Positions 1,503 to 13,235 of a DNA stretch of 64,000 nt are shown in pieces (the stretch's first letter is position 1; each line of letters starts with the position of its first letter). The notes under the pieces are model-generated. The model worked only from the letters and a program-made list of their open reading frames with translations. It had not been told where the DNA came from and ran no database searches. The DNA comes from Elusimicrobiota bacterium. Its GTDB lineage: Bacteria; Elusimicrobiota; Elusimicrobia; Elusimicrobiales; UBA9959. A program made the translations under genes and the position numbers. Location: assembly GCA_012517285.1 (NCBI GenBank), contig JAAYVG010000038.1, forward strand, positions 1-64,000, in the 5' to 3' direction.

Positions 1503-2432
1503 TTATTCCTGAAACTTTTCTGTATGCCTACATTTAGGGTAGTTAGAACATCCCCAAAATTTTTCTCCCTGATGTTCTCCCCTTGTTGCAACTCTCAATA
1601 CCATAGGCTTATGACAGAACGGACATAACGGCGGCACAGCTGTTTTTGAAGTGTTATTTAATTCTTTCTCCTTTAAATCAGGTGGCATAAAATCTTTCTC
1701 ACTATATTTAGTTCCACTTGAACTATCTTTATCATCATTTAGAATTAAAACTGATTTTTTTTGATAGCTTTTATTATAAGTTTTATTGTTAAAATCAGCT
1801 TTCCCATCTTTTTCATTATGCTTTTCTTTTACTTTACTAATAATTTCAATAAGCTTTTTACCATTTATAAGTTCTACTGGTTTATCCGCTACAAAATCAA
1901 TTGCTGGCTGAGTAAAATCACCTGAACAAATCACAACAGCTTTGCTTGCATTCTCACTAACCATAACCCCATATATCTCCCTTATAACTTTCACATCAAC
2001 CTTATACGCCTTCCAGTGCTTACACTGTATTACAAGTTTTTCTCCATTCTTTTTAGCCACAATATCTATTCCACCATCACTGACATTTTCCCCACCAGAA
2101 TGATAAACCGAATATCCCTGATTTTTATAAAAGCTTTCTATGAGAGACTCAAACTCCTGCCATGATAATTTTTTTATATCATCAAGAGAGATAGTATTTT
2201 TAAATTTCTGATTCTTTAACAGTGAAACAAAAAAAGATATCACTGCAATAAAAAACACAATGACACTTAAAAACTTCAAAGCAGGAGCAATTATAGGCCC
2301 AATATTGAAAAACCCGGCTTTTATATTGCTATTTCTCAACACAAGATAAATAATATAAAGAACAATTGAAACAGCCAGATTTACCTTCCAGCTTGATTCA
2401 ATTAAAACCTCAAGATTAGTTTTTTTAGCCAT
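1503..2432 (-). CDS. Mrr-like restriction endonuclease with N-terminal TM segments and C-terminal topoisomerase-type zinc finger
   Basis: FESLIESFYKNQGYSVYHSGGENVSDGGIDIVAKKNGEKLVIQCKHWK (PD-(D/E)xK Mrr core); CPFCHKPMVLR...FWGCSNYPKC zinc finger. Confidence 0.85.
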   Translation of the reverse strand: MAKKTNLEVLIESSWKVNLAVSIVLYIIYLVLRNSNIKAGFFNIGPIIAPALKFLSVIVFFIAVISFFVSLLKNQKFKNTISLDDIKKLSWQEFESLIESFYKNQGYSVYHSGGENVSDGGIDIVAKKNGEKLVIQCKHWKAYKVDVKVIREIYGVMVSENASKAVVICSGDFTQPAIDFVADKPVELINGKKLIEIISKVKEKHNEKDGKADFNNKTYNKSYQKKSVLILNDDKDSSSGTKYSEKDFMPPDLKEKELNNTSKTAVPPLCPFCHKPMVLRVATRGEHQGEKFWGCSNYPKCRHTEKFQE

Positions 2433-2466
2433 TTATCCTCCAGAAATTAATCTTAATAAAGTTTTT

Positions 2467-3381
2467 TTATTTATTCATATCATAACTTTGCTTGATTAAA
2501 TCAAAAACTGGCTCAATTTCATTTTCTTTGCAAAGTTTTACTTCGTAATCACCATTTCCCCAGTGCCCAATTTTTTTGGGTTTTGTTAAATCACGAGCTA
2601 ACTTCTGTGGATCATTAAGATGTCCACTCATTACATTTAAAAAAATTTTAAGACCATATTGGTTAACCACTATATCTGTAAAATTTGTCGATGTTTTATA
2701 TGCAATATATTTTGCTTTTGCCTCTTCTATAATATTTTTATCCAACGATAATATTTTTTCCCTCAAACCTTGAAACAAATCAATTATTTGTTGATTAATT
2801 CCATTAAGATGATCATTTATAGAGTAAGTTTTTTGTAATTGTTCATCCTTTTCTTTTCCCCGCTTTGCTTTTTTAATTATTCCCGATGTTGAAATTTTAA
2901 CTTTTTGATAGTTCTCTGGCTCTAAATATAAAATATTTTCATCATATATGCGATATCTTAAAAGTTCAATATTGATTGGCAATATATCAGCGGTATCAAG
3001 ATCAAACTTATTGTAATTTTCAGCGATACATATAACACGAGGGGAATCCCAATCTATTTCAAAATCAATTTTTTTATTTTTACATAAAACTTCAAAATCA
3101 GCTTTATGATCAAGAAGCCAACGCAAATATGAAAGTCCTTGATTAATAACATTATCGTTTTGATTCTTCTTATATTCAATAATACATGGAGAACCATTCC
3201 TATCTATACCAAGAGTATCAATTCTCCCTCCAAAGCTTGTAGAATATTCATGAGCGAGAAATATAATATTCAAAATTTCATTTAAATTTAACTCAAAAAG
3301 TTTTTGGAGATTAGACTCTAAATCAAGATTACACACCATTAGTTTTTTTACTATTAAATTATTTATTTTAAATAATGCCAT
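2467..3381 (-). CDS. DUF5655-like protein with PD-(D/E)xK-type nuclease domain
   Basis: GRIDTLGIDRNGSPCIIEYKK motif; C-terminal HWGNGDYEVKL. Confidence 0.7.
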   Translation of the reverse strand: MALFKINNLIVKKLMVCNLDLESNLQKLFELNLNEILNIIFLAHEYSTSFGGRIDTLGIDRNGSPCIIEYKKNQNDNVINQGLSYLRWLLDHKADFEVLCKNKKIDFEIDWDSPRVICIAENYNKFDLDTADILPINIELLRYRIYDENILYLEPENYQKVKISTSGIIKKAKRGKEKDEQLQKTYSINDHLNGINQQIIDLFQGLREKILSLDKNIIEEAKAKYIAYKTSTNFTDIVVNQYGLKIFLNVMSGHLNDPQKLARDLTKPKKIGHWGNGDYEVKLCKENEIEPVFDLIKQSYDMNK

Positions 3382-3385
3382 ATTT

Positions 3386-4411
3386 TCATTTTCCTAATTC
3401 TTTTTCAATATCTTTAATCGATGGTAATGACTTACGCAATGTTTTAGGAATCGTACGAGATAACTTATATTCTGAAACTCCCATTGGTTTTGTCATATTT
3501 CTCAAAGCATATTCCGCAATAATTCTATCTCTATTTTTACAAAGAATAATCCCTATTGAAGGATTATCATTATTATTTTTTATTTGGCTGTCAACTGCTG
3601 AAAGATAAAAGTTAAGCTGACCAGCATCTTCAGGTTTAAAATTTCCTGTTTTTAATTCAATAACGACATAGCATCTGAGCTTCAAATGATAGAAAAGGAG
3701 ATCTATATAAAAATCTTTACCCGATACTTTTATATGATACTGCTGACCTACAAATGAAAATCCCGCTCCGAGTCCTAAAAGAAATTTTGTTATATGACGA
3801 AGAAGTTCATTTTGAAGCTCTAACTCTTTTGCGTTTCTGGAAATGTTTAAAAAATCAAAGATATAGGGGTCTTTTACTGTTTGTTGAGCAAGTTCAGATT
3901 GAGGATAAGGTAGAGTTCTCTTAAATGTGGTTATTTTATGTGTTTTTCTTTGTCTTTCATAAAGCTGGCTTTCTATCTGATGAATTAAGACATCTCTTGA
4001 CCAGCCATTTTTGATAGTTTCGTTGATATACCATATTCGTTTTTGATAACTTTTGACATAATCCAGAATTCTAACATTGTGCCCCCATGGTATTTGTGCA
4101 ACAATCTGTTGCACAATTAATTTATCAGGATATGCTTCAGCAAACGCCCGCATATATTTAAGATTGCGAGGAGAAAAACCTTTCATATCTGTAAAAGTTT
4201 TTGTTAAATCACTGGCAAGGTGATCTACTACTTTTGTACCCCATCCTTGTTCTTTTTGCTGTTTTAAAATTGTAATTCCGATATCCCAATATAATAATAT
4301 CATTTCTTTATTAGCCGAAAGAATCGTTTTATGGCGTGCTTTACGAATTTTATTTTTGAGTTCTTCAAGAATAGTTATGTAGGAAGATGTGTTTATAGTT
4401 TTTATATTCAT
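3386..4411 (-). CDS. DUF1016/YhcG-like PDDEXK nuclease family protein
   Basis: FYIDLLFYHLKLRCYVVIELKTGNFKPEDAGQLNFYL; LLYWDIGITILKQQKEQGWGTKVVDHLASDL typical of DUF1016. Confidence 0.9.
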   Translation of the reverse strand: MNIKTINTSSYITILEELKNKIRKARHKTILSANKEMILLYWDIGITILKQQKEQGWGTKVVDHLASDLTKTFTDMKGFSPRNLKYMRAFAEAYPDKLIVQQIVAQIPWGHNVRILDYVKSYQKRIWYINETIKNGWSRDVLIHQIESQLYERQRKTHKITTFKRTLPYPQSELAQQTVKDPYIFDFLNISRNAKELELQNELLRHITKFLLGLGAGFSFVGQQYHIKVSGKDFYIDLLFYHLKLRCYVVIELKTGNFKPEDAGQLNFYLSAVDSQIKNNNDNPSIGIILCKNRDRIIAEYALRNMTKPMGVSEYKLSRTIPKTLRKSLPSIKDIEKELGK

Positions 4412-4552: not shown

Positions 4553-4620
4553 AACCAGCCATATTTACTTTCCAACTTGATTCAATTAAAACCTCAAGAT
4601 TAGTTTTTTTAGCCATTTAT
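4553..4620 (-). pseudogene. 5' fragment of the Mrr-like gene (duplicate of 2370-2436)
   Basis: Near-identical DNA 'ttgattcaattaaaacctcaagattagtttttttagccatttat', encoding MAKKTNLEVLIES.. on the minus strand; no downstream reading frame. Confidence 0.85.
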
Positions 4621-4638: not shown

Positions 4639-7281
4639 TTATATCAACTCTGACAATTTTGTTACTGACTTAAATTTTACATCTGAAAATTCTTTAAAAT
4701 GGGCTTCACCACATTTTATTTTCATAAGTTCAGATGTCCTTAAATCAAGCTTATTAAGATTATACTTAGTTTCAGCTACAAAATATATTCTCCTATCATT
4801 CTTATAAATCAATGCCCAATCAGGATTATAATTGCCTATAGGAGTTTTAATAGTAAACCAGTCTGGTAGTTTTATAAAAAATTCAATATTATCATTGTTT
4901 TCACAATCTTTTGCAAATTTCTTTTCGACCTCAGACATAGAATCAATTACTATATTCTCGGATATAGTCTTTTCAATTCTTGTAACTTTGTATAAATTAT
5001 CGACATATGCTTCTATATCCTTATCAGAAAACAACATCATAGAATATTCCTGTCCAGCTATTTTCTCATACTTTATACCATCTATCATCAAATCATATAA
5101 AACAGACTTTATCTCTGATACTGCCAAATCAAGAAACATTTGAGGATTTTTTAAAATATCAGTTAATCTTTGGGATTGTTTTAATATTTGAAGTATTGTA
5201 GATTTTGTTAAATCAGTTCTATTCTGTATATATGTTATGATATCAGGAATATCAATTTTAGAAATGTTAGATAATCCATTGTCATAGCTCTCTCCAACGA
5301 TATCAGTTTTAATCCCATCCTCATCCATCTTTATACTTGCCCTAATAGCTTTTATCTTCGGCTTTTCAACAACAGGCATGTTTTTTATTTTTCCTGCTGC
5401 ATTTGTTATTAAAGTTTGAGTATCATACCTTACTTTATATGAAGTTTTCTGTTTTATCCTATTCCACAGATCAACAAACTTCTCATCCATCTCAAAACCT
5501 TTTTTATATTTTACTTCAACTCTGTTTTTTTTATTTTTAATTCTACCCTCAAAATTTACACCACATTCATCCTGCATTTCTGTTTGCAATTTTCTGGCAA
5601 AATCTTCATAGCTTTCGTTTGCAATAACTGTAAGACGATTTGTATTTTTATCTTTTATTCTCTCCCCATCCTGATTTACACACAATCTCAAGCCACGACC
5701 AATCTCCTGCCTTTTTTTCATCTCAGATTTTGTTTCATTCAAAGTGCAAATCTGAAAAACATTCGGGTTGTCCCATCCTTCCCTCAGAGCAGAGTGTGAA
5801 AATATAAATTTTAATGGCTCATTTATATCTAAAAGCCGCTCTTTATCCTTCATTATAAGCTGATACACATCGTCGTCATCATTTGTTTCACCAGATGAAT
5901 CCTTTAAAAAACCAGTCTTTTTGTCCTGAGCAAAATAACCGTTATGCACTTTATCAATAGTAAATTGTTTAAACCCAGAACACATAGTTTTCCCACTCAA
6001 TTTCATATATATTTCTTCAAACCATAAAGCAAACTTGCCTTTGTTTACTCTTTTTTGTTCATCATAATATCTGTAATTTTTAACCCTGTCAATAAAGAAA
6101 AGAGTGAGGACCTTGATCCCTTTTGGGAGAAGGACCTTCTCTTTTTTAAAATGCTCTTCAATAGCTTTCTCCATTTGATACTTCATTATTTCATCACTTA
6201 GTCCACCATGAGTCTGCCCCTTATATAATATTTCACCATTAGAAAACTCAACAAGCCCTGCCTCTCTGTCAATTCCATTAATAATATATCCATCTTTATA
6301 AACCTCTCTATAATTGGAAAGGGTATAAAGATCATCCCCAGCTTTTGCAGTAACTAATTTCTGCAGAACCCCCTTATCAGTGTTTACATCAATTTTAATT
6401 TTAACTAATATCTTATTTTTTTGTTTACTGATTATATCATCAATCTGAATAAAAGCCCTGTTCTTATCATTATCTGCAAAAACAGAATCAACCTCTATCT
6501 GTTTCACAAGTCCAAGATCATATGCCTGAACAGGATCCAATCTATAAATTAAATTATAAAGATTTTTATGTGTTGCAGAATATCTCAGAGTAAACACAGG
6601 ATTAAGACTTTCTATAGCTTTCTTACGAATCTCAGTCTCCATATTCTGAGGTTCATCAACAATAACTATAGGATTTGTTGACTGAATAAATTCAATTGGC
6701 TTTTTACCATTAAGTTTATCATTTGGCTTGTTTATAACATTCTCATCTTTTGCAAAAGAATCTATATTAATAAGCAATATCTCTATATTATTGCTATCAG
6801 CAAAATTTCTTATAGATGATATATTTTCCCGCAAGTAAACACTGTATTTAGCAGGTATTCTGTTATAAATATTCTGGAAATGCTCATAAGTGATATCAAG
6901 ACTTTTTAAAACGCCTTCTTTAATTGCTATGCTTGGGACAACTATGACAAACTTCTTAAATCCATAACACCTATTAAGCTCATAAATAGTTCTCAAATAA
7001 ACATAAGTTTTACCTGTTCCTGTCTCCATTTCCACGGAAAAATTCATACCATTCAATTTTTCAGAAATAGGCAAATTATTATCTTTTTGAACCTTTTTAA
7101 GGTTTTCTAAGACTTGTTCCTCTAAAATAGTTAAATTATTTCTAACCCCTGAATATTTCAATCCAAAACTATCACTAAACTCAAAATCACCCTTGTTTAA
7201 AGATTGACCCTCAAAAAGTTTTATCACAGAATTAACGGCATCTAACTGATATTGCTGATTTGCATCAAAATGAAGTTTCAT
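4639..7281 (-). CDS. Type III restriction enzyme, Res subunit (DEAD-like helicase plus PD-(D/E)xK)
   Basis: METGTGKTYVYLRTIYEL Walker A, VDEPQNME motif II, IGRGLRL motif VI, C-terminal NPDWALIYKNDRRIYFVAETKYN. Confidence 0.93.
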   Translation of the reverse strand: MKLHFDANQQYQLDAVNSVIKLFEGQSLNKGDFEFSDSFGLKYSGVRNNLTILEEQVLENLKKVQKDNNLPISEKLNGMNFSVEMETGTGKTYVYLRTIYELNRCYGFKKFVIVVPSIAIKEGVLKSLDITYEHFQNIYNRIPAKYSVYLRENISSIRNFADSNNIEILLINIDSFAKDENVINKPNDKLNGKKPIEFIQSTNPIVIVDEPQNMETEIRKKAIESLNPVFTLRYSATHKNLYNLIYRLDPVQAYDLGLVKQIEVDSVFADNDKNRAFIQIDDIISKQKNKILVKIKIDVNTDKGVLQKLVTAKAGDDLYTLSNYREVYKDGYIINGIDREAGLVEFSNGEILYKGQTHGGLSDEIMKYQMEKAIEEHFKKEKVLLPKGIKVLTLFFIDRVKNYRYYDEQKRVNKGKFALWFEEIYMKLSGKTMCSGFKQFTIDKVHNGYFAQDKKTGFLKDSSGETNDDDDVYQLIMKDKERLLDINEPLKFIFSHSALREGWDNPNVFQICTLNETKSEMKKRQEIGRGLRLCVNQDGERIKDKNTNRLTVIANESYEDFARKLQTEMQDECGVNFEGRIKNKKNRVEVKYKKGFEMDEKFVDLWNRIKQKTSYKVRYDTQTLITNAAGKIKNMPVVEKPKIKAIRASIKMDEDGIKTDIVGESYDNGLSNISKIDIPDIITYIQNRTDLTKSTILQILKQSQRLTDILKNPQMFLDLAVSEIKSVLYDLMIDGIKYEKIAGQEYSMMLFSDKDIEAYVDNLYKVTRIEKTISENIVIDSMSEVEKKFAKDCENNDNIEFFIKLPDWFTIKTPIGNYNPDWALIYKNDRRIYFVAETKYNLNKLDLRTSELMKIKCGEAHFKEFSDVKFKSVTKLSELI

Positions 7282-7321
7282 AATCTTCCTTTCAAAATTA
7301 TTACACTAAAAAATATAAAAA

Positions 7322-8440
7322 TTATTTTTGATACAGATTACAACTTACATATTTTTTTTCTACACCATCTATATATCTGTATTCAGGCAAATTCAACCTT
7401 ATTGCTATATTTTGCCGTCTTACAGCTTTCCTAAACGAACGTATTTGATTATCAGTCCAGTTTGAAGCAATAAAATATTCTTTCGAAGTCTGACTTTTAG
7501 CTCGTGGTTTATAATTATCTTCAGTTGCATTTAAAGGTCTATAACGACAATCAACCACCTGAACTCCCCACTTACGACATTCCTCCAATTTTTCACACAT
7601 CTCTTTATAATCTAATGAATTATGATTATACAACATAAACACATATATATCCTGATTTCTGTAACCTGCATTTTTTAAAATTTCTACCTGATTCTTAATT
7701 TTTTCTTTTAATTTTATACTTCCATCCCATGCTATTCTCGGTTTTAAAAATCTTGCTTTTTTTAATGAAATAGCCAATTCAGGGTCTTTTTCTAATATTC
7801 TTCCATCCAATCCACTCTGACTCTCGCAGAAAACTACTCTATCATTAATTTTTGAATTTTCAATTTCTTTTAGAATTAACTTTATATTAGGATTAGCCAG
7901 AAGATTATTATCATAAAAAATCAATTTATTTGATCTAATTTCTTTTAAAATTGTTTTTTTATAAGTTACTTCAGGTTCTATTTTCCATGTTCCACAAAAA
8001 TTGCAATGACGGAAGCATCCTCGTGAAGCATGAATTATCTGATAATCTACATTTACAAGAGAATAGTCAGGCTCGTATTCTTCAGCCTTACCATTTCTAT
8101 ACAACCCAGTATAAACCTTATCACATCCAGTGTATTCCTTACAATGCTCAGGCATAAGTGATGCATAAATACCGCCCACTTCTATTTTTGACTCTGGATA
8201 AAGTTTTTTATAATAATTAACACTTTCTTTAACATACTTTGACCAATATGTAAACAGAGAAGTTATCTTTATCTCATCTGGAACAAATTTTGATGGTAAA
8301 TTTCCTCTATTTAAACAAATTGTATCACCCAAACTTTTATGATAAGAAGCTATTTTCAATAGACCAATAGGTAAAAAATCTGAGTGATTTTTACTTTTTG
8401 TTGATATAGGAAAATTTGGTTCAACTAAAAGAATTTTCAT
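7322..8440 (-). CDS. Radical SAM protein, B12-binding-like N-terminal region
   Basis: ASRGCFRHCNFCG (CX3CX2C cluster motif); N-terminal MKILLVEPNFP...LPIGLLKIASYHKS. Confidence 0.85.
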   Translation of the reverse strand: MKILLVEPNFPISTKSKNHSDFLPIGLLKIASYHKSLGDTICLNRGNLPSKFVPDEIKITSLFTYWSKYVKESVNYYKKLYPESKIEVGGIYASLMPEHCKEYTGCDKVYTGLYRNGKAEEYEPDYSLVNVDYQIIHASRGCFRHCNFCGTWKIEPEVTYKKTILKEIRSNKLIFYDNNLLANPNIKLILKEIENSKINDRVVFCESQSGLDGRILEKDPELAISLKKARFLKPRIAWDGSIKLKEKIKNQVEILKNAGYRNQDIYVFMLYNHNSLDYKEMCEKLEECRKWGVQVVDCRYRPLNATEDNYKPRAKSQTSKEYFIASNWTDNQIRSFRKAVRRQNIAIRLNLPEYRYIDGVEKKYVSCNLYQK

Positions 8441-9837
8441 TGTAATTTTTTATTATTAAAAATAATAGAATAAATATCTTCAAATATTGATATAACCTTT
8501 GTTGTTGTAAGAATAATAGTTGTAGGATGAGCTGAATCACACCTTATTTGATAATCAGCTTTTAAACTACTATACTCCGTTTTATTAATCATTGATTTAT
8601 GAAACAAATACAACATCAATATATTATCATTACCATCACGTAAATCTTCTTGGGTATAGTCATTTCTTATTTGATTATTGTAATATTTATATGGAGTTTT
8701 TTTTATATTTTTGATATCATTTAAGACACGATTATATTCCTCTAAATCTTTCTCAATCAAAGTAATAATCTTACTAATTCCAGCAGCCCAAATCATTACG
8801 ACTGCAGCACGAAGACATCCTTTTTCTAAACATGTTAAAGCCTCAGCAATATAAGAATGTTCTTCTTCACTTAAATTTTTACCTAATAATTCATATTCAG
8901 CCCTAATATCCTTAATTTTGGTTTCTTGCTTAGGAGTAATACGAATTGTTTGTGATTTTGTTGATGCTATATCTTTCGAGTTTCTTTTACAAATTTTTTG
9001 AGTAGATTTCTTCACCTTTAAATATTTATCTAATGACTCTTGAATTGTTTCCGGTGGATTTTTAATAAATTCTTCAAGAATTTTTTTGGCTTCAATATGA
9101 TTTTTATCTTTAAAAACAGATTTATATTTGTCCATTAAAAAACGTGTATTTACCAGATATCCATTTGAAGCTTTTTCAACAAGTATTTCCCTAATTTTAT
9201 CCTCCCCATATACTTTTACTATTTCTGGGAAATTACTCACTAAAGGCGACAAAAAACTCTTTTTGATTTGAATCAAATAACTCACATCTAAATTACCGGA
9301 AATCACTTTATCAATTACAGCCTCATCATATTCACATAAAATCAACAAATCTTCAATTTCATGTTCCCTATGAAAAGTAATTTCACGTAATTTTTTCTTT
9401 AATTCTGATTCACTTATATTAGGTTGACTATTTTTTAAATCTTCTATAATTTTTCTAATAGATTTGGTTTCAGAAGGTTTTTCCCATTGCTTTCGTAACA
9501 TATGAATTTGATATGCAAGTATGCGAGCATCAGCATCACTGGCTGCAATTAAACAAGGAACAGTAATAAGGTTTATTTGTTTAGCAGCTCGTAATCGTCT
9601 TTCTCCATCTATTAAAACATATTTATCTTTTTCAGATTCATTAGGCTTAACAATTAATGGTTCCAGAATCCCATAACTTTTTATTGAATTTGTTAATTTA
9701 ATAAATTCTTTATCCTTAAGAATATTTTCCTCAGATTCTCCACGTGGATTATTTTTATCAAACTCAATTGTATTAATCTGTAAATTTTTTCTACTCTTAA
9801 AAATATTCTTTATATTCCCCATAATCACCTCTTCCAT
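8437..9837 (-). CDS. ParB/sulfiredoxin-fold N-terminus with HEPN-like C-terminus
   Basis: SIKSYGILEPLIVKPNESEKDKYVLIDGERRLRAAKQI (ParB-like); C-terminal CLRAAVVMIWAAG ... RCDSAHPT (RX4H). Confidence 0.75.
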   Translation of the reverse strand: MEEVIMGNIKNIFKSRKNLQINTIEFDKNNPRGESEENILKDKEFIKLTNSIKSYGILEPLIVKPNESEKDKYVLIDGERRLRAAKQINLITVPCLIAASDADARILAYQIHMLRKQWEKPSETKSIRKIIEDLKNSQPNISESELKKKLREITFHREHEIEDLLILCEYDEAVIDKVISGNLDVSYLIQIKKSFLSPLVSNFPEIVKVYGEDKIREILVEKASNGYLVNTRFLMDKYKSVFKDKNHIEAKKILEEFIKNPPETIQESLDKYLKVKKSTQKICKRNSKDIASTKSQTIRITPKQETKIKDIRAEYELLGKNLSEEEHSYIAEALTCLEKGCLRAAVVMIWAAGISKIITLIEKDLEEYNRVLNDIKNIKKTPYKYYNNQIRNDYTQEDLRDGNDNILMLYLFHKSMINKTEYSSLKADYQIRCDSAHPTTIILTTTKVISIFEDIYSIIFNNKKLQ

Positions 9838-9840
9838 TTT

Positions 9841-11808
9841 TTATACCGTCAAGAAATCTATTTCTGCGTCTTTCATCTGAAGAGATATGTTTGTTTTAAG
9901 CTGATCATTACCCTCAAATATACTATCAAGACATACTACTTTATTTGGCTTGAGTTTTATTATCTCTCTCAAACATTCCTCATCAACCTTTGAAAGCACA
10001 ATAACCATTTCATTATCAGCAACTATATAAAATTTATTTTTATCTTTTTCATAAAGCGTTATTTTTGTATTAAGGTCATATCCAGACTTTAATAGCAACT
10101 CATAAACTATATTTTCCTCTCTGGCTTCCGGCTTTAAAGACTCTTTAAAGATATCCATCTGTTTTTCCAAATCATCCTCATTATCTATAAAATCACCGCG
10201 CCATATCTTAAAATTAGAATTTTTTAATTTAAAAACCTTAAATCCTAAATCCAGAGTTTGATTTTTATCTTTTACCTCATCACTCATTTTTTTAATAACT
10301 CTCCTAATTCTTTCCTTACATATCTCAGCTATGGTTTGATAACCTGCTTTATATGCCTCAGAATCTTCTTCTGTTTTTTCTGGGAGCTGAACACAAATAA
10401 ATTTTCTATTTCCACCATCCTCCTTATTCAATTCCATAACAGAATGAGCAGTTGTCCCAGACCCTGCAAAAAAATCAAGAACAATATCGTTAGGATTTGA
10501 GGCAATTTTAATTAAATAAGATATTAATCCTATTGGTTTAGGATAATCAAATATTTTTTTATTATCAAACAATTCTTTAAACCCTTGATGTGATACATTG
10601 TTTGGAAAATCCATAATAAAAGTACCATATGGGATAATTCTATTAATATTATTTAGGTTATTATCAATAAATTGATATTCCTTGAAATAAATTCCCCATT
10701 TGTTTTTTTTATTTTTCTTCAACACAATAAACTCATTTTTAATTCCCCATTGAAGCTTATTTTGAGACCATCTCCAAGTAAAACTTTTATCTTTTTCATC
10801 TCCTCCAGGCCATATTTCTAAATTTTCTTCAACTCTTTTTTTTACAATTTTCTTTAAATTTTCATCAAATACTAAGAATTCTTCTCCCTTTTGTATTACT
10901 ATAGGATAGTCTAATTTTTCTGAATAATGGATCCCATCATCATCCATTCTTCTCAAATAAAAACATCCTCGCTCATTTTTAAACTCATCATCATATTTAT
11001 ATCCTTTTAAATTTGATTGTTGCTTATTAACTGTTAAAGAATTAATACTTTTACAATAGCAAATACAATAATCATGTTCATTCGCAAAAAATGTTGAATC
11101 TTGTTTACCTGCAAGATTTTGTCTCCTAACAAAGCATGCTACAAAATTTTCCTCTCCAAATATTTCATTCATTATAAGGCGAAGGTTATGGACTTCATTA
11201 TCGTCAATTGATACAAAAATAACGCCATCATCCCTTAAAAGATTTCTTGCAAGAAACAATCTTGGATACATCATTGAAAGCCAGTTGCTGTGATAATGCC
11301 CATTTTCTTTAGAATTTTTTCTGAATAAACCTTCCTTTAAAAGATATCCTTCCTCATCCTTTTCTCCAATTCTTTTTAAATATTCTTCTTTGCTTTCCTG
11401 AAATTTATCAGGATATATAAAACTATCATTTCCTGTGTTATAAGGCGGGTCTATATAAATCATCTTAATCTTACCGTAATAAGATTTCTGTAAAATCTTT
11501 AAAACCTCAAGATTGTCACCCTCAATAAAAATATTTTCTGTTTTATCAAAATTGACTCCCTCATTACGAGATGGCGATAATGTCGCTGTTGTGGTTGTCT
11601 GTAAAACTTTAAAAGCTTCACTTTTTCCTGCCCAGTCTAAATTATATCTCTCATCACTGTTTATTACTAACTTTCCTAAAGTTCGTCTTAAAGATTCAAA
11701 ATCAATTTTCTCTTCCCTGAATGCTTCAGGAAAGATTTCTTTCAATTTATCTATTTTATCATTCGCAATATTTAATGAATCTTTTTCAATATCTGTTTTT
11801 TTATCCAT
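9841..11808 (-). CDS. Type III restriction-modification system DNA methyltransferase (Mod, N6-adenine class)
   Basis: MIYIDPPYNTGND (DPPY) and VLDFFAGSGTTAHSVMELN (FxGxG). Confidence 0.93.
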   Translation of the reverse strand: MDKKTDIEKDSLNIANDKIDKLKEIFPEAFREEKIDFESLRRTLGKLVINSDERYNLDWAGKSEAFKVLQTTTTATLSPSRNEGVNFDKTENIFIEGDNLEVLKILQKSYYGKIKMIYIDPPYNTGNDSFIYPDKFQESKEEYLKRIGEKDEEGYLLKEGLFRKNSKENGHYHSNWLSMMYPRLFLARNLLRDDGVIFVSIDDNEVHNLRLIMNEIFGEENFVACFVRRQNLAGKQDSTFFANEHDYCICYCKSINSLTVNKQQSNLKGYKYDDEFKNERGCFYLRRMDDDGIHYSEKLDYPIVIQKGEEFLVFDENLKKIVKKRVEENLEIWPGGDEKDKSFTWRWSQNKLQWGIKNEFIVLKKNKKNKWGIYFKEYQFIDNNLNNINRIIPYGTFIMDFPNNVSHQGFKELFDNKKIFDYPKPIGLISYLIKIASNPNDIVLDFFAGSGTTAHSVMELNKEDGGNRKFICVQLPEKTEEDSEAYKAGYQTIAEICKERIRRVIKKMSDEVKDKNQTLDLGFKVFKLKNSNFKIWRGDFIDNEDDLEKQMDIFKESLKPEAREENIVYELLLKSGYDLNTKITLYEKDKNKFYIVADNEMVIVLSKVDEECLREIIKLKPNKVVCLDSIFEGNDQLKTNISLQMKDAEIDFLTV

Positions 11809-11873: not shown

Positions 11874-13235
11874 AGGTAATGTATCATATTATGTGTAATT
11901 AGTGAGAAGTGAGAGTTGACAATGTAGATAAGAAAGGGTTATCCTTCTAAGTATATTGAAATAACAAAAAAAGGAGGATAACCCAATGAACAGTATACAA
12001 AATAATGGAGTTAAAGAGCTATATTTTACGGAGGAGGATATAGAGGAACGGATGAGTGGAGTGAAAGAAGACTTTTGGGGAGATATAAAGGCAGAGACGT
12101 TACGAGGAGTTAAATTGCTACTTGAGAATAGTATGGAGATAGAAATACAGGACATGATAGGAGCGAAGAGGTGGGAACACAGTCAAGGGCGAGAAGGGAT
12201 GAGGAATGGGAAATACCGACGGACATTATGGACAGAATACGGCTGGATAAGTGATATAAGGATGCCACGATTAAGGGAAGGACGAGCAGAAATAAAGACG
12301 ATAAAGAGGTATCAAAGGCGAGCGGAAGATGTTAATAAGCTGATTATGAATATGTTTATATATGGGGTATCTACTCGTAAGATAAAAGAAGTGCTTACAC
12401 CGTTATATGGGCGAGAAATGATAAGTGCAAGTAGTGTAAGTCGGATAAGCAAGGAATTAAATAAAGAGGTAGAAAAGTTTCATTGTAAAAGCATATCAGA
12501 TGATTACAAATATATATTTTTAGACGGTATATATTTAAAGGCGAAGAGTCCGATAAGATCTAAGAGGCGATGTATACTTGTAGCATATGGTATAAAGGTA
12601 GATGGTAAAAGGGAGTTAATAGATTACAGATTATCAGGTGGAGGCGGTGAATCAGAGAGTAGCTGGGAGAGTTTTTTAAACCTATTATATAATAGAGGTC
12701 TTGAAGGAAAGAATATAGAGCTTGTAATAATGGATGGTAATAAGGGATTATATAATGCAGTAGAGATGATATGGCCACGAGCTAAGAGGCAGAGATGTTG
12801 GGCACACAAGCTGAGGAATGTGGCGAACAGAGTTCCAAAGAGGATGCAAGAAGAATGTCTTAAAGGAGCGAGAGGAATATACGATGCTGATAATAGATAT
12901 AAAGCGATAGAGGCATACAAGGGATGGTCGAGGAAGTGGAAACAAATAGCACCAGAGGCAGTGAGATGTTTAGAAGAGGATTTAGAAGATTTATTATGGT
13001 TTTATGATTGTCCAAAAGAGATAAGAGTAAAGGTAAGGACTACAAACATAATAGAACGAGTGTTTAGAGAGGTAAGGCGAAGGACGAGACCAATAAGTTG
13101 TTTTACGAACACACAAAGTGTAGAAAGAATAATCTTTGCTGTGTTTAATAGGCAGAATAATATTTGGAAGAATAAACCTTTAAAAATTGAAAAAGAATAA
13201 AATTATGAAATTACACAAAATTATTGACATTACCT
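11874..13235 (+). mobile_element. IS256-family insertion sequence with ~27-bp imperfect terminal inverted repeats
   Basis: Left AGGTAATGTATCATATTATGTGTAATT (11874-11900) vs reverse complement of right end AGGTAATGTCAATAATTTTGTGTAATT (13209-13235); encloses transposase; flanked by A-tracts. Confidence 0.88.
11986..13200 (+). CDS. IS256-family (mutator-type) transposase
   Basis: 404 aa; VIMDGNKGLYNAVEMIWPRAKRQRCWAHKLRNV; TTNIIERVFREVRRRTRPISCFTNTQSVERIIFAV. Confidence 0.95.
   Translation: MNSIQNNGVKELYFTEEDIEERMSGVKEDFWGDIKAETLRGVKLLLENSMEIEIQDMIGAKRWEHSQGREGMRNGKYRRTLWTEYGWISDIRMPRLREGRAEIKTIKRYQRRAEDVNKLIMNMFIYGVSTRKIKEVLTPLYGREMISASSVSRISKELNKEVEKFHCKSISDDYKYIFLDGIYLKAKSPIRSKRRCILVAYGIKVDGKRELIDYRLSGGGGESESSWESFLNLLYNRGLEGKNIELVIMDGNKGLYNAVEMIWPRAKRQRCWAHKLRNVANRVPKRMQEECLKGARGIYDADNRYKAIEAYKGWSRKWKQIAPEAVRCLEEDLEDLLWFYDCPKEIRVKVRTTNIIERVFREVRRRTRPISCFTNTQSVERIIFAVFNRQNNIWKNKPLKIEKE

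Follow-up and report, generated by a model that had tools for sequence, protein, structure and literature searches.

What role do two additional genes, one encoding a ParB-type protein and the other a radical SAM protein, play between the mod and res genes of a type III restriction-modification locus? The locus in question lies in the window, by which we mean the whole 64,000-nucleotide stretch of Elusimicrobiota DNA that was analysed. An ORF check placed all four genes on the minus strand: mod (9841..11808), encoding the 655-aa N6/N4 DNA methyltransferase subunit; the gene for a 466-aa ParB_N domain protein (8437..9837) whose all-helical C-terminal tail carries RCDSAH, a putative HEPN-like RX4H motif; the gene for a 372-aa radical SAM protein of the PHROG 9298 family with a predicted two-domain B12-type fold (7322..8440; hereafter rSAM); and res (4639..7281), encoding the 880-aa restriction helicase-nuclease. 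Inspection of the sequence revealed, in this order, a 3-nt gap, a 4-nt ATGA overlap and a 40-nt gap at the junctions; the four reading frames are intact, and the catalytic motifs of the locus are kept. A preceding sequence-only reading had reported a run in a single direction with junctions of 3, -4 and about 40 nt, and the coordinates, strand and spacing were all confirmed. This run is more than a chance arrangement, because a second genome of the phylum (G247) has a ParB-rSAM junction with the same overlap. The answer that we favour, at a probability of roughly 0.4, is that a mobile two-gene module occupies a slot between mod and res, that rSAM modifies DNA together with its ParB-fold partner, and that the RX4H tail possibly serves as an RNase back-up.

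The restriction chassis itself is complete. Mod matches PF01555 (1.3e-37) and the PADLOC model MTase_III (1.4e-195), with intact DPPY (at 120) and FAGSG (at 447) motifs, and Res matches PF04851 (1.5e-16), PF19778 (1e-34) and the PADLOC model REase_III (3.7e-289), with intact GTGKT, DEPQ and PD...ETK motifs. A Mod with N6/N4 methyltransferase motifs and a Res with an SF2 helicase and a PD-(D/E)XK nuclease are encoded in the same operon, and by these defining genes the locus is assigned to the type III restriction-modification systems. Cleavage by such systems needs two inversely oriented sites, and methylation takes place on one strand. In comparison with a standard mod/res system, the window locus possesses the same intact pair but has two genes added between its members, the very place at which its type III relatives carry other inserts.

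The first of the added genes codes for a member of the ParB/sulfiredoxin superfamily, as judged from its ParB_N domain (PF02195, 7.6e-15) with a GERR-type nucleotide motif (GERRLRAA at 78) and from matches to solved ParB structures. Its tail is predicted to be all-helical in a low-confidence model (pLDDT 56), whose best fold matches include HEPN entries with E above 1, and the RCDSAH motif is kept as RCDCAH in the sole homologue, a 49% identical protein of G247. A HEPN assignment of the helical RX4H tail is plausible; hence, the earlier description of a ParB-like-HEPN protein stands for its ParB part and has to be toned down for its HEPN part. If the tail were indeed an RNase, the pair might be an abortive cargo reminiscent of PrrC, in which the ParB-tail protein would be an RX4H toxin silenced by the type III complex, and rSAM would modify RNA, a nucleotide or the toxin, while the DNA would stay unmarked. 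Conservation of RX4H in both ParB-tail homologues suits this alternative, and HEPN proteins encoded in restriction-modification operons, PrrC/EcoprrI among them, are a described theme, with ParB-HEPN fusions being listed among the HEPN genes (PMC3710099). The window locus resembles PrrC/EcoprrI in having an accessory RX4H gene inside a restriction-modification operon, but its tail is only a putative HEPN domain, is paired with rSAM and belongs to a type III rather than a type I operon. Moreover, the HEPN homology of the tail is not significant, neither Pfam nor NCBIfam provides a match to it, and the RX4H tail is limited to two ParB partners (those of the window and G247), with no match in phage or plasmid collections; run against viral sequences, the ParB-tail profile returned one weak ParB match. 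We consider the abortive alternative somewhat unlikely.

The unexpected element is the second added gene. rSAM matches PHROG 9298 ('radical SAM domain protein'; 2.3e-34), and both PF04055 and PF02310 fall below their cut-offs. Pfam and NCBIfam hold no name for the subfamily, no PADLOC model covers the protein, and a sequence search of the PDB with the rSAM profile gave no match. The description of PHROG 9298 goes no further than that of a phage family in the category 'other', and in the open-access literature we found no description of cellular members in restriction loci. The cluster motif CxxxCxxC (CFRHCNFC at 142), located in a TIM-barrel-like domain, is shared by all 30 family members in the phylogenetic tree. 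An AF2 model (pLDDT 83.5, pTM 0.80) has MgmA, MiaB and TokK as its closest folds (E values from 1e-10 to 7e-7 at 10-14% identity), and motif and fold together assign rSAM to the radical SAM superfamily as a divergent member. With a B12-binding-type N-terminal domain among the fold matches, the protein is predicted to be a two-domain, B12-type enzyme; its use of cobalamin is uncertain since the DxHxxG motif is absent. Hence, rSAM shares the predicted two-domain fold and the cluster motif with the B12-type enzymes MgmA and TokK and with MiaB, but differs from them in its low sequence identity, in the missing DxHxxG motif and in its setting, which is that of restriction and phage loci. MgmA acts on a protein, MiaB on tRNA and TokK on a small molecule, so that the fold of rSAM does not settle its substrate.

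Insight into the position of the two genes came from other members of the phylum. Strong matches to the window Mod are present in 26 of 338 genomes (the window genome included), and 20 mod loci were taken for inspection, 18 of which include mod as well as res within the stretch. At least one gene intervenes between mod and res at 13 of these 18 loci; at another (L125), the two genes are spaced by 3 nt or less. According to a reading of the sequences rather than a family scan, the inserts are AlbA/Schlafen-type genes (six loci), RloC-like ATPases (two loci) and, at one locus each, an OLD-like ATPase-Toprim gene, a DUF4062-type set, a pair of AAA and DUF4276-like genes, a large methyltransferase with YhcG, and RhuM. 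The mod-res gap is a cargo slot in this phylum, and the pair in the window is one of its cargoes. No ParB protein or rSAM of the window type was seen in the gap among the mod-res loci examined. The presence of RloC/PrrC-like ATPases and of OLD-like, AlbA/Schlafen-like and RhuM genes in the slot of relatives would also befit an abortive, PrrC-like cargo. As a separate observation, the gap holds many different defence-like inserts across the inspected loci (L121-L140), making it a potential source of new systems; even if rSAM does not mark DNA, it offers a practical place in this phylum in which to seek new defence genes.

The occurrence of many unrelated cargoes in the slot means that co-location alone is no proof of joint function. 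This bears directly on the proposal, put forward in the sequence-only reading, that the four genes make up a dedicated, augmented type III system whose parts all work jointly, a proposal that the single operon-like run of four intact frames would fit. However, both observations that the sequence-only reading had itself named as contradicting it were made within this phylum: homologous mod-res loci lack the pair, and G247 has the pair but no detectable mod or res of this family. In addition, a search for co-occurrence of all four genes uncovered no second case, either among the mod-res loci examined or among the 342 genomes of this one phylum that were scanned for the ParB-tail protein, so that the four genes were not found to recur as a conserved unit in this survey. 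The four-gene system is, in our view, improbable. What survives of the original idea that the inserted pair contributes a base modification or an RNase arm is its accessory, defence-linked status; the contexts of relatives favour base modification by rSAM, and the RX4H tail may be the RNase arm.

Among the 342 phylum genomes, the ParB-tail profile has matches in the window genome and in G247 only, and the pair is thus known from two genomes. G247 possesses it with the same gene order and overlap as the window, and no mod or res of the window family was detectable in this genome, which is about 96% complete; its contig breaks off a short way upstream of the ParB gene, and linked genes could have been lost there. 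In another genome, G014, an insert of a different kind separates mod from res (L121), and an rSAM of 66% identity lies at the beginning of a separate contig. The ParB-tail/rSAM pair is separable from mod and res. One may then ask if the pair is a mere passenger, an independent mobile module for which the slot is only a landing place with no functional tie to Mod and Res. Its occurrence without mod and res in G247 and the readiness of the slot to accept many unrelated inserts would be expected in that case, but the 3-nt gap to mod and the ATGA overlap within the pair suggest co-expression with mod, and other rSAMs are built into restriction operons as well. For these reasons, we regard a mere passenger as unlikely.

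The settings of the wider rSAM family carry most of the weight for our preferred reading, a module whose rSAM modifies DNA. In a tree built from 30 family members plus two outgroup rows, the window rSAM groups with those of G247 and G014 (support 95/92) inside a 13-row clade (100/100). This clade spans the type III locus, a type I restriction-modification operon, a GHKL operon, a Dnd-related system (Pbe) and no fewer than seven viral contigs (IMG/VR). Within the clade, the L076 locus has the gene for a GHKL ATPase, that for a 335-aa protein and rSAM directly followed by the genes of the type I operon, and the same trio occurs at L015 without the type I genes. At L040, also in this clade, rSAM overlaps a dnd_assoc_4-like gene of a locus with PbeA (1.1e-219) and PbeC (4.8e-165). 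Deeper members, found on plasmids of Rhizobium, Mesorhizobium, Novosphingobium and Roseomonas, are flanked by a gene of the DGQHR/DpdB fold (neighbour matches of 2e-44 to DGQHR and 2.7e-17 to DpdB at these alphaproteobacterial loci) and a GHKL ATPase gene; three of the four plasmid loci have a DEAD/SNF2-type helicase nearby, with that of Rhizobium matching the DpdE and ZorD models, and neither a methyltransferase nor a TGT is annotated at these loci. A further genome (G268) combines three ParB-like genes, an SNF2 helicase, a GHKL gene and rSAM. Viewed separately, DGQHR or ParB, a GHKL ATPase and rSAM form a recurring plasmid or chromosome cluster (L038, L043, L044, L141, L142, L077), mostly with a DEAD/SNF2-type helicase and with no methyltransferase annotated in it, and this cluster has the appearance of a restriction-type system not yet described.

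In phages and archaeal elements, rSAM overlaps a ParB gene, directly follows one, or has three DNA methyltransferase genes downstream. Phage rSAM copies beside DNA methyltransferases point to marking of self-DNA, which speaks against the PrrC-like alternative. One such locus, from an Oscillospiraceae phage (L147, 4000-8908), is an overlapping run in which rSAM is accompanied by a MetK-like gene, a ParB-methyltransferase fusion gene and the gene for a C5 methyltransferase that contains a large insertion. On two viral contigs, the gene immediately after rSAM encodes another radical SAM protein, of SplB-like type (L080, 2963-3814; L083, 5101-5952).

Members of the family are repeatedly associated with restriction chassis, and also with ParB/DndB-fold proteins or DNA methyltransferases. 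Immediate adjacency of rSAM to a ParB, DndB or DNA methyltransferase gene was recorded at 9 of 27 loci, the expectation within these loci being 3.1 (P 8e-4), and at 8 of 26 loci (P 0.003) when the window locus was left out; the seed genes of this test were taken partly from the same loci, and this mild circularity makes it supportive rather than decisive. Weighing against a DNA-modifying role, no ParB or methyltransferase was detected near rSAM at six loci (L015, L040, L078, L079, L086, L036). A scan of genome contigs with one sequence yielded one locus, L015, the survey outside the phylum being thin, and no further rSAM was found in 297 genomes of the phylum to which L015 belongs. We found no report in the open-access literature of this rSAM family in restriction systems.

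From the settings of these relatives, and by analogy with DpdA and DpdB, we infer that DNA is the substrate of rSAM. As a B12-type radical SAM enzyme, it would introduce a carbon-centred or methyl-type modification, while the ParB-fold NTPase partner would load it onto DNA or gate it, in the way that DpdB serves DpdA. The helical RX4H tail could be a back-up RNase that is released when restriction fails. At the window locus, where the type III system would have captured the ParB-tail/rSAM module in its cargo slot, the rSAM mark would add to adenine methylation by Mod and not replace it. ParB can bind CTP. Viperin-like chemistry was considered in view of this property, and nothing supports it. 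For the family at large, we tentatively suggest that PHROG-9298-like rSAMs are uncharacterised DNA-modifying enzymes that phages may use to mask their DNA, and that may serve cells as an exchangeable modification component across several kinds of restriction systems, in most cases alongside a ParB/DndB-fold or GHKL partner. If rSAM marks DNA, it would represent a route of base chemistry in restriction distinct from methyltransferases, Dnd and Dpd, and the same part would be common to phages and defence systems.

Known DNA modification systems show partial likeness to this arrangement. In the 7-deazaguanine systems, the DNA-modifying enzyme DpdA is aided by the ParB-like ATPase DpdB (PMC12839542), and distant rSAM relatives have a DpdB-fold protein and a helicase resembling DpdE as neighbours; however, no TGT-type DpdA is annotated beside them, with rSAM standing in place of the modification enzyme, and the window locus has no match to TGT, DpdB or DpdC. 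Dnd phosphorothioation and the Pbe/CxC ABC-ATPase system (PMC10853773) are connected to rSAM through its close relative at L040, and DndB, a ParB-superfamily protein, resembles the ParB partner; in contrast, DndA/C are missing and the window locus lacks an ABC ATPase. No DndCDE or PbeABCD genes were found in the window locus, and only a relative of its rSAM sits in such a system. From its gene content, the window locus is judged not to be a Dpd, Dnd or Pbe system.

After res, and outside the pair, the same strand carries further defence genes: a YhcG/DUF1016 PD-(D/E)XK nuclease gene (3386..4411, minus strand; PF06250 7.6e-66, PADLOC PDC-S02 1.4e-152), a gene for the candidate defence protein PDC-S18 (2467..3381, minus strand; PADLOC PDC-S18 2.9e-92) and a gene for an Mrr-type restriction endonuclease with a zinc ribbon (1503..2432, minus strand; PF04471 2.6e-31, PF01396 4.3e-10). 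With these three genes (1503-4411), the locus amounts to a defence island of small size. A 68-nt direct repeat (94%; 2369-2436 and 4553-4620) places a copy of the mrr 5' end just downstream of res; the two copies flank the YhcG and PDC-S18 genes and resemble a cassette-insertion scar. At the other end of the locus, just upstream of mod, lies a Mutator/IS256-type transposase gene (11986-13200, plus strand).
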